Shown piece by piece: positions 49,143-54,586 of a DNA stretch of 64,000 bases (within the stretch, counting starts at the first letter, position 1; the number at the start of each line of letters is the position of its first letter). The translations under genes and the position numbers were made by a program. The stretch covers positions 1-64,000 of the forward strand of contig JALSTK010000028.1 of assembly GCA_026983775.1 (NCBI GenBank). Reading direction: 5' to 3'. The notes under the pieces are model-generated. The model made no database searches. It was not told the DNA's origin and saw nothing but the letters and a program-made list of their open reading frames with translations. The DNA is from Calditrichia bacterium (GTDB lineage: Bacteria; Calditrichota; Calditrichia; Calditrichales; Calditrichaceae).

Positions 49143-51035
49143 TTATTTGATCAGGATCATCTTCCTGGTTGCTGTAAAATTGCCGGCTTTAATAGTGTAA
49201 AAGTATACACCCGAGGCTAATCGGGAGCTATTCATGGTTACGTTGTAATTTCCGGCGTTCTGAAATTCATTCACTAATGTTTTTACTTTTTGTCCGGCAG
49301 AATTAAATACCGCTATTTGTACATGGCTGTTTACAGGCAAAGCATAACGAATAACCGTACTGGGATTAAATGGATTCGGATAATTCTGTTGCAGAGAAAA
49401 ATCTGAAGGAACTGGTCCCATATCCCTGGTGATGGAACTGGCAGGGTTGCCCAGATCCACTTTTGCCGCAACTACGACTTCTTTGGTATCGTCATTCTGT
49501 ACAAAAGCAATCAATTCGCAATTTTCCTTTACAACACCGCTTGGAATGGTGAAATTGATCGTATTCTCAAATTGTGTTCCCACGTCCGGTGCGGAAGTTC
49601 CGTCCCAAATTTTAACCCCGGCCGCATCCGGGAACATTTCCCGCTCCACAAAATGCAGAGAGTCCATGGATGTTTCCCAATTATAGGCGATATGCGATTC
49701 ACATAAGGCCCAGCGTAAGTGGTTGTTTTTAGCGAGGGTAATCCCCTGATAGGTCGTGGTGGAGGTAGCTACGATATCATCTCCGCTTTCCGAGAAGGTT
49801 ATTTCCATGGTGAGCGGCGTATACTCTTCCCGCTCTGCGAAATATTTACTCTCATAGCCGGAATAAACACCGGACCAGTCCGAACCGGCCGCAGCACCGC
49901 CGACCTGCTTGCGGTCACCGCCGAATATACAGGTTGGATAAGAGTGTACATCGTAATAAGTTCTGCGGTCTCCGGAATAGCTATTATCAAACGGATCGTT
50001 GCCGCTGAAGCCACCATGATAGGCGATGATAGCCACATTATCCGGATAGGTTTTATATAAACTGTCCAGGGCATTGGCAGCTCCGGGGCAGTAGGTGCAT
50101 TCCGTATCGGTAAATTCCTCCGGCAACACCACGTCTTTTTGATTGGCGTAAGAATTGATATATTGGGTAACCAGATCGTTGCTGGTATCTTCATCGCCGC
50201 TCAACAACGTTTTTACATAAAAAGTATAACCGACTTTTTCAAACGTATAATCGGCAAAGGTTACCTGCGTTTGGGCACCGGCTGCCAGACCGGTTACGGT
50301 TTTGGTGTCAATGGGCACTTCGTTGTTATCCCAATCGTAATAACCGAATTCCACGTCGAACGTTTCCGTATTCAGCCCCTCGTTACTTACGGTAGCCAGG
50401 GGCTGTACAACCGTATTCGGATCATAATGCGCGTTCATATCAATTGAATACGCCATTACGTCGTGATCGGACGGAACCGTAATTTTAACATCGTCCACAA
50501 ACCATTGATAATTGGGACTGCTCGGATTGTGGTAATGGAAGCCTACATAAACCGTACTCTGACCCACATAAGCAGACAAATCCACCGAAACCATATCGCC
50601 GCCGAAACCTTGGATTGTATGATTCTCGGGCGTCATCGTTAAAATTGTCGTAAAGGCGGAGGCTGAATTATTATTGGTTGTAGAAACAGCAATATAATTC
50701 GTACCGCCACTGCCGACCCAAGAGCTCTGGTCTTCATAAAAAGTCAGCTTGGCACTGGTTGCGGAAGAAAGGTCTACGGCAGGGGTAACCATCCACATAT
50801 CTTTGTCGTATAAATAACCTGTTTCAGCCATTGCGGAGTACCCTCCCGTCCGACTCTTATCTGCCGATTGAACCCAGGCTTCCAACTGAAAGTCCGAAAA
50901 TAGCGTCCATCCGCTGGGTGGAAAACTGCCTTCGAAAGATTCGTTCACCAATGCCGCGCTGGTTTTTTGATTACCGGCCAGAACAAATGCCGCTACAACC
51001 AATAAAAGGATTACCGAATGTACTAATGCTTTCAT
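49143..51035 (-). CDS. T9SS-exported Omp28-like thioredoxin-fold protein with choice-of-anchor J domain
   Basis: A 630-residue exported protein. Signal peptide (1-20), choice-of-anchor J-like domain (about 28-190, ESFEGSFPPSGWT ... WFVDDVKI), a short beta-domain (about 195-295), then an Omp28-related thioredoxin-like domain opening VLPEEFTDTECTYCPGAANALDSL with a CTYC motif and continuing to about 530. The last 85 residues are a type IX sorting domain (LQQNYPNPFNPSTVIRYALP, SGVYFYTIKAGNF). ATG at 51035 with AGGAGG inside the end of the upstream gene. A surface-attached disulfide enzyme or sensor is likely; the substrate is unknown. Confidence 0.75.
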   Translation of the reverse strand: MKALVHSVILLLVVAAFVLAGNQKTSAALVNESFEGSFPPSGWTLFSDFQLEAWVQSADKSRTGGYSAMAETGYLYDKDMWMVTPAVDLSSATSAKLTFYEDQSSWVGSGGTNYIAVSTTNNNSASAFTTILTMTPENHTIQGFGGDMVSVDLSAYVGQSTVYVGFHYHNPSSPNYQWFVDDVKITVPSDHDVMAYSIDMNAHYDPNTVVQPLATVSNEGLNTETFDVEFGYYDWDNNEVPIDTKTVTGLAAGAQTQVTFADYTFEKVGYTFYVKTLLSGDEDTSNDLVTQYINSYANQKDVVLPEEFTDTECTYCPGAANALDSLYKTYPDNVAIIAYHGGFSGNDPFDNSYSGDRRTYYDVHSYPTCIFGGDRKQVGGAAAGSDWSGVYSGYESKYFAEREEYTPLTMEITFSESGDDIVATSTTTYQGITLAKNNHLRWALCESHIAYNWETSMDSLHFVEREMFPDAAGVKIWDGTSAPDVGTQFENTINFTIPSGVVKENCELIAFVQNDDTKEVVVAAKVDLGNPASSITRDMGPVPSDFSLQQNYPNPFNPSTVIRYALPVNSHVQIAVFNSAGQKVKTLVNEFQNAGNYNVTMNSSRLASGVYFYTIKAGNFTATRKMILIK

Positions 51036-51043
51036 GCTGCCTC

Positions 51044-52219
51044 CTAATTAATGGTGGTTTGTATTATCTTTTTTGTTGAAATATCCTGTACAAAGGCGAT
51101 GACATGGCTGTTGCCATAGTTCCAGCCCGGCCAGTTAATCCGGTAGTCCAGTCGATCCGAGTTGATCTTATCACCTTTTCTGTCACTTAAAAAACGTCGG
51201 AACACAAAATTGAAATCTTTTAAACCGTTACTGCCGGGTGGGCTGTCGTAATGGATATCGTCTTCCGAAACGGCTACAAATAAGCGTAACTGATCGTTTG
51301 GCAGGATATGATTAAAATCGTATACTTCTACCCTGACCTGCAGTGTATCTTCGTTAAGCGTCTTGTTAACCGAGAGGGCCAGAGCGCTCTGTTGTCGGGC
51401 AATTTCATTGGTATACGCGGTTACGATGGCTTCATAGTCGGCTGCATCTATGCCGGTGGCGCCGTTGGAGCGCAATTGGGGTAACGTGGATACACTGTAA
51501 TAACTGATCCGCTCTTTAATGTCGTCGGGAGAAACTTTGTAGAAAGGATCGTTGAGGTTGGGCCAGAAGGCGTAATATTCCATTAAGGCATAAGAACCCT
51601 GCGGATGTTCTACACGAAACCGTTCCAGGTTTTTCGCCGATGTGACGCAGGGTTCACAAGAAACGTTTCCGAACGACTCGAACAGGATACGCTGCAATAT
51701 CTGTAGGTCATAAATAAAACTGACGGTTGAATCCATTACAGAAGTTACCGACCATGCTTGCGCTACAAAACCGTTTTTCTCGATTCGTAACCGATGTACC
51801 CCCGGTTCAACCCGGATTGTATCCGGAGTCACTTTCCCGGAAGATTGATCATCAACAAAAATGTTGGCCCCGGAGGGTTGACTTTGAATATAAATATAGC
51901 TTATCTGCACCAGCTTTTTCAAACGAATATGAACCGTGGACAGGGTTGCGTTGCTTACATGAACGATAATCGAATCTTCCTCCGGAACATAGCCGTTTTT
52001 ACTCAGGTGAATCATATGGGAACCGACCGTTATGCCGGTAAGGGTATCCGGTGTGAGTTTTTGAGTATTGATTCCATCTATGAAAATAAACGCGCCGGCC
52101 GGTGCCGATTGCACAAAAATGGAACCGGTCTGATTTTGGTTGGTTATATCTACCGGTTGCCTAACACCACAAGAGAGCACAAAAAGCAGTACAATCAAAA
52201 AATAAGGATATTTTAGCAT
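51044..52219 (-). CDS. PEGA-domain lipoprotein with Omp28-like CxxC domain
   Basis: A 391-residue lipoprotein starting at the ATG at 52219 (GTG at 52237 is less likely). The lipobox is VLSC. Two PEGA domains follow (about 32-100 and 108-175): SIFVQSAPAGAFIFIDGI with TPDTLTGITVGSHMIHL, and YIYIQSQPSGANIFVDDQ with TPDTIRVEPGVHRLRI. The rest resembles Omp28-type thioredoxin folds, opening LFESFGNVSCEPCVTS with a CEPC motif at about 188. First gene of a minus-strand operon (8 bp to the next gene). PEGA domains usually bind surface layers or sugars. A lipid-anchored thiol protein held near the outer membrane is the natural reading. Confidence 0.72.
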   Translation of the reverse strand: MLKYPYFLIVLLFVLSCGVRQPVDITNQNQTGSIFVQSAPAGAFIFIDGINTQKLTPDTLTGITVGSHMIHLSKNGYVPEEDSIIVHVSNATLSTVHIRLKKLVQISYIYIQSQPSGANIFVDDQSSGKVTPDTIRVEPGVHRLRIEKNGFVAQAWSVTSVMDSTVSFIYDLQILQRILFESFGNVSCEPCVTSAKNLERFRVEHPQGSYALMEYYAFWPNLNDPFYKVSPDDIKERISYYSVSTLPQLRSNGATGIDAADYEAIVTAYTNEIARQQSALALSVNKTLNEDTLQVRVEVYDFNHILPNDQLRLFVAVSEDDIHYDSPPGSNGLKDFNFVFRRFLSDRKGDKINSDRLDYRINWPGWNYGNSHVIAFVQDISTKKIIQTTIN

Positions 52220-52501
52220 ACGATTTCCAACATACACATTACATTGCCCTTCAGGCAGGTCATCCCTGATGGTAAGGGCGCGAAAATTAATTTAAGAAAT
52301 TAAAAATTTATGGTTGTATTGGCCGTCACGAATTATTTACAATGCTTTATTAAATTAATATAGAAATAATTTTTTATTTTTTCAATGATAGAATTTTTTT
52401 TATGGAAAACAAAAAAAAGACGGAATATTTACGGTCATAAGTAGATTACATAAATTGCACCTATCTCGAAGCTATCAAATGATTAAACAGCAGGAGGTTT
52501 T

Positions 52502-53802: not shown

Positions 53803-54486
53803 TCAGGGTAAATACAAAATTTTCGTATCCGGGTGTTCCGCTTTCCATTCTTTCCATGTAGTTCGCACAGAAGGGATTTCCGGCAATTCCCGGTCGGCAT
53901 TCTTTCCCGCTACACTTCGGAGCACATGCTCATCCGGGAAGGGATACCACATACTGCCGGTTTCCTGGTCCCACAGGACAAAAGTATTGATATAGACCCA
54001 GCCGCTGGCTCCGAGATGCAGGACACTATCCGGTACTGCGGCAAATTGTCGACTGTACACGACAGTCAATTGCTCCAGCGGTCAGTAGGTTACCGCCACA
54101 TATTGCCGGCCGAATTGATCGTTCACTACTTCATGACCATTGAGAATATTCAGCGGATACGCCCGACTCTCCCCGTTCAGTTCCAAACCGATTACGGAAA
54201 AAGTAGCGCTTGCGGCAGGATAACCCGCATCTCCGGGGCTAAGAAATCCGGGTTCGGAAATAGGCGTAATGGCATTTACTCCCAAACCGTAACGAAAAGC
54301 ACCCGGCTTCCAGCCATACTTTTCCACGGCATGAGTTATATCCCATTTTTTCCCTGTTGCATCGGTCAGGATTACCTTCTTGGTAGTATCGTTTCCCGTA
54401 TTATACTGATTATCCACTACTGTCGTATCATTATTGGTACAGGAAAGAGCAAAAATAGCAACTACGATCACAAAGATCATTCTCAT
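53803..54486 (-). CDS. DUF3179 lipoprotein with in-frame TGA: candidate selenoprotein
   Basis: The frame from the ATG at 54486 (GGAG upstream) to the stop at 53803 is interrupted only by TGA at 54084-54082, codon 135. Before it: lipobox FALSC, then RAYPLNILNGHEVVNDQFG and YVAVTY. After it, in the same frame: PLEQLTVVYSRQF, LGASGWVYINTFVLWDQETG and TTWKEWKAEHPDTKIL. Together these are a full-length DUF3179 protein, 227 residues. From memory, the family reads VTYCPL at this point, so the TGA sits exactly at the conserved Cys. A hairpin (54069-54049) begins 12 nt after the TGA, where bacterial SECIS elements lie. Everything else in the frame is intact, which argues against decay. Alternatives are a nonsense mutation, a sequencing error, or readthrough. 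No selA/B/C/D gene is in this window. The function of DUF3179 is unknown. Confidence 0.7.
54049..54069 (-). promoter_or_regulatory. SECIS-like hairpin downstream of the in-frame TGA
   Basis: On the minus strand TTGACTGT, loop CGTGT, ACAGTCGA: an 8-bp stem with one U-G pair and a 5-nt loop containing GU. It starts 12 nt after the TGA at 54082, close to the spacing in E. coli fdhF. It could also be chance; short hairpins are common. Confidence 0.45.
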
Positions 54487-54586
54487 AGGTTTTCTCCACT
54501 GCTAAACTTTTAGCCATATTACGAAATTATTACTGACAGAACATCACGTAATTATTAAAAATGTGATTGTTTTTATAGACAGAAAC

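Follow-up and report, generated by a model that had tools for sequence, protein, structure and literature searches.

The DUF3179 gene on the minus strand at positions 53803–54486 of the window, which is the whole 64,000-nucleotide stretch analysed here (positions 1 to 64,000 of contig JALSTK010000028.1 of a Calditrichia bacterium, assembly GCA_026983775.1), is with a probability of about 95% a real selenoprotein gene, in which the UGA at codon 135 would be translated as selenocysteine (Sec). An earlier note on this DNA had put the gene forward as a candidate selenoprotein, and this proposal is supported by conservation of the TGA, by a covarying hairpin and by the presence of Sec machinery. 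The gene and its features are as follows.

53803–54486, minus strand: predicted DUF3179 selenoprotein gene, short form, single domain with a lipoprotein signal, 227 residues (read-through translation and PF11376)
54494–54497, minus strand: Shine–Dalgarno-like GGAG, 7 nt 5′ of the ATG at 54486 (sequence)
54439–54441, minus strand: lipobox Cys, residue 16 (ALSC; Cys in all 21 aligned short forms covering the site)
54082–54084, minus strand: in-frame TGA, codon 135 (VTY-U-PLEQ), predicted to be read as selenocysteine (TGA in homologues)
54049–54069, minus strand: predicted SECIS hairpin with an 8 bp stem, 13–33 nt 3′ of the TGA (MFE −8.1 kcal/mol; compensatory changes across 29 sequences)
54057–54061, minus strand: apical loop of the SECIS, CGUGU, at a spacing of 20 nt from the TGA (27 of 29 Sec sequences have CGTGT, as against none of 23 Cys sequences)
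53914–53916, minus strand: residue 191, a Ser; 15 of the 22 short-form homologues have Cys here (alignment)
53803–53805, minus strand: terminating TGA of the gene, presumably read as a stop (sequence)

As had been noted earlier, a single in-frame TGA (54084–54082) interrupts an otherwise complete DUF3179 protein: the read-through product matches PF11376 with an E value of 2.9e-38 and 132.4 bits in a profile search and passes the curated cut-off of 27 bits. Only the N-terminal half of the profile is matched (positions 6–147 of 292), so the window protein is a single-domain form, most DUF3179 members being two-repeat proteins. The lipobox, the ribosome site and the conserved blocks 3′ of the TGA were found to be intact, in agreement with the same note. 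The signal peptide and lipobox were assessed by eye and, since the lipobox Cys is kept in every short form covering the site, the protein is most likely exported and lipid-anchored. The mature protein contains no Cys besides the lipobox residue. An AlphaFold model of the window protein is fairly confident (mean pLDDT of 81.8, with block means of 79–92 near residue 135) and places Sec135 at the end of a predicted β-strand. A search of the PDB with the sequence and with the AlphaFold fold returned no usable solved relative, and none of the NCBIfam models matched the protein.

The TGA sits at the conserved Cys of the family, as the note had claimed, and an alignment of homologues from the window genome's own family and phylum, together with named genomes, displays the anticipated exchange between Cys and TGA. 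All 22 short-form homologues with an intact motif carry TGA at the position of codon 135; two of the 22 are identical across the compared region. These short forms span the phylum families f1, f3, f4 and f5 and one MAG each from Calditrichaeota, KSB1 and Gemmatimonadetes, and where aligned the orthologues are 39–57% identical to the window protein. The third residue after Sec is Glu in the window (UPLE) and Val, Ile, Arg or Ala in its short-form relatives. Nine long-form homologues also carry TGA at the same codon (L037, L043 and L058 with VTWUPLC/ATWUPLC; L070 and L077–L081 with AVWUPLA), and the remaining long forms carry Cys, which occupies the site in 23 aligned homologues. Among the short-form homologues recovered, none had Cys at the site, and the short-form clade is apparently Sec-obligate by this sequence comparison. 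The lone short form without the TGA is a diverged tandem copy in genome G034 with Ser at the Sec site (VYSGF). It lies in a tandem array (L053/L075, G034:C6:314682-317540) of three short-form genes, two with TGA and one with Ser.

In a tree calculated by a quick method with the Sec column removed, the 22 Sec short forms and the Ser copy form one group (SH-aLRT 97) and the long Sec forms form a separate group (SH-aLRT 89), and all labels are explained by two changes. The tree is unrooted and does not separate gain from loss of Sec.

A stem-loop 3′ of the TGA with an 8 bp stem and a GU-containing loop, also described previously, was located at 54069–54049 with the loop CGUGU. The published bacterial SECIS model has a loop of 3–9 nt, a stem of 4–16 bp, a G among the first two loop nucleotides, a spacing of 16–37 nt and an MFE of −7.5 kcal/mol or lower (PMC13188914). 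The window hairpin, which the note had suggested testing against such a model, agrees with it on every point: it has a loop of 5 nt with GU at positions 2 and 3, a stem of 8 bp, a spacing of 20 nt and −8.1 kcal/mol. The hairpin alone is modestly unusual, with a z score of −1.83 against shuffles, and its six core pairs are all formed in 1.6% of synonymous recodings; because this single-sequence signal is weak, the comparative evidence carries the weight. In the 29 distinct Sec sequences compared, pairing holds for 163 of the 174 core cells (94%), against an expectation of 111.7 ± 4.7 (64%) and a maximum of 128 in 3000 trials when synonymous codons are redrawn. Core pairing falls to 40% in the 23 Cys homologues, in which the hairpin is not conserved, and reaches at most 63% in registers shifted by up to 5 nt. 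The covariation score is 0.384 (0.201 ± 0.021 for shuffled alignments and at most 0.136 for slid registers). An independent count gives 20 cells that are changed on both sides, compared with 6.2 ± 2.0 after shuffling and at most four when the register is displaced by 1–3; of the two controls, the slid registers remove relatedness, whereas the shuffles do not. We regard this comparative evidence as decisive for a stem preserved by compensatory changes in the Sec sequences.

The search for selA, selB, selC and selD elsewhere in the genome, a test that had been set beforehand, recovered all of them: selA with 497 bits, selB with 377 bits, tRNA-Sec (selC) with 69.8 bits and two selD genes with 400 and 367 bits. 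DUF3179 matches occur in 20 genomes of the phylum; the TGA form is present in 13 of them, and selA and selB are both found in 12 of these 13. The six genomes of family f2 all lack selA, selB and tRNA-Sec and contain DUF3179 only in the Cys form. The association between machinery and TGA form gives a one-sided Fisher's p of 0.0012, a value that includes no correction for kinship (f2 is one lineage) and for which genome G013, with selB and tRNA-Sec and no selA, was conservatively counted as having the machinery. selA was also found in the named KSB1, Calditrichaeota and Gemmatimonadetes genomes. In one genome (G036, 95% complete) selA, selB and tRNA-Sec were not detected despite a TGA long form. 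This long form (L058, G036:C256:16931-17386, ATWUPLC) may reflect an assembly gap, a contaminant contig or a stranded selenoprotein gene.

UGA at codon 135 would be decoded by SelB and tRNA-Sec under the direction of the hairpin 13–33 nt downstream, and the product would be exported and lipid-anchored with Sec at the position where other DUF3179 proteins have Cys. Sec usually stands in for a catalytic redox Cys. We consider it probable that Sec135 is a redox catalyst in extracytoplasmic thiol/selenol chemistry, in a protein with no solved relative and no resolving Cys; the selenol would act as the nucleophile in a thiol/peroxide or disulfide redox reaction. Since the lipidated Cys is the only one in the mature protein, the oxidized Sec would need a separate reductant, and for the same reason the chemistry of the Sec residue is directly testable. 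An invariant Sec at one site also marks the likely active centre of the large DUF3179 family.

The alternative that survives best accepts a genuine selenoprotein and assigns Sec a metal-binding or structural role rather than a redox-catalytic one. The CPLC/CTLC motifs of some Cys homologues could bind metal, and the window form (UPLE) offers no second thiol; metal sites, however, normally require more ligands than one selenol, and the usual role of Sec in place of a redox Cys also makes this reading unlikely. It is considerably less likely that the main function of the UGA is regulatory, as a switch giving a truncated product without selenium and the full-length protein with it. Every Sec codon in bacteria is in competition with termination and this one gene carries two UGA codons, but the truncated form would lack most of the conserved domain, and the blocks downstream of the UGA are conserved. 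A pseudogene or a sequencing error, with the TGA as a misread TGC or TGT or as a mark of decay, is very improbable: the single in-frame stop does lie at a Cys codon, one base from TGC or TGT, but the identical TGA recurs across independent assemblies and genera at 39–57% protein identity, the reading frame and lipobox are intact and the hairpin covaries. The frameshifted decay in relatives that would have signalled such a history was sought and not found, the TGA being retained at the same codon. Genome-wide recoding of UGA to Trp or Gly, which would equally let an in-frame TGA be read through, can be dismissed, as TGA ends six of the 37 main window ORFs and also ends the DUF3179 gene itself, TGG is common (292 codons in the window count), only one of seven in-frame TGA candidates in a scan of long readable frames of the window recognisably splits a protein (that of DUF3179) and the aligned residue is Cys rather than Trp or Gly.

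For the redox reading, two conserved neighbours in the window are of interest.

51044–52237, minus strand: PEGA-Omp28 lipoprotein with a CEPC motif (Pfam, sequence; same neighbour in L089 and L090)
49143–51035, minus strand: Omp28-like protein carrying a CTYC motif and a tail for type IX secretion (Pfam, sequence)

This pair of Omp28-family CxxC genes lies downstream of the DUF3179 gene in the window and in genomes G008 and G009 (three genomes from two genera), with two opposite-strand genes in between in the window. Their recurrence beside the DUF3179 gene makes the encoded proteins candidate redox partners, which might reduce the oxidized Sec, although we consider this assignment improbable. 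On the other side of the DUF3179 gene, the window and G008 have a NamZ-like muramidase gene; the other short-form neighbourhoods examined differ. A speculative extension, likewise of low probability, is that the whole Sec-obligate selenolipoprotein clade constitutes a one-selenol extracytoplasmic peroxidase or reductase that is recharged by the secreted or lipid-anchored CxxC Omp28 proteins. If true, this would amount to a selenium-based redox relay outside the cytoplasm of Calditrichota and their relatives. Searches of the literature on Caldithrix selenoproteins and on Omp28 as a thioredoxin relative yielded no helpful paper.

The earlier note knew of no described selenoprotein in DUF3179, but the family is already included in published lists of prokaryotic selenoproteins with the motif UxxC/T (PMC9312934, Biomolecules 2022 12:917; PMC13188914, Appl Environ Microbiol 2026), the former citing a 2007 study of the Olavius algarvensis symbionts for DUF3179 selenoproteins. 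These proteins share the Pfam family (PF11376) and a Sec-UGA in a U-x-x motif with the window protein, which is set apart by the published motif description, having UPLE in place of UxxC/T and being a short single-domain lipoprotein. The short-form lipoprotein clade, with UxxE/V/I/R/A and no resolving Cys, appears not to have been described in the literature examined. Automatic gene callers split the gene at the UGA, and such a clade is easily missed in Calditrichota and related genomes. The long-form Sec proteins have the same codon position and a near-identical SECIS loop (CGUGU), but are two-repeat proteins of ∼335–440 residues in a separate tree group. The Cys proteins (CPLCG, CPLTG, CTLCG and CPLCN) share the homologous domain and site, but have a Cys codon and no conserved hairpin and are mostly longer two-repeat proteins. 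Some members bear the NCBI product name 'DUF3179 domain-containing (seleno)protein', for example WP_227777496.1; this name allows for Sec as in the window, yet this haloarchaeal member has Cys (CTLCN).

The two selD genes of the window genome each have an unusual feature. The first (L020, G000:C153:27419-28351) contains an in-frame TGA in SCAG-TGA-ASK followed on its 3′ side by a GGU-looped hairpin of −7.4 kcal/mol, and its SelD is likely to be a second selenoprotein of this genome. The second (L019, G000:C63:66230-67153) forms the C-terminal part of an open frame of ∼740 residues, the N-terminal part of which resembles a NifS-type cysteine desulfurase, so that the frame, judged by eye, would encode a desulfurase–SelD fusion.
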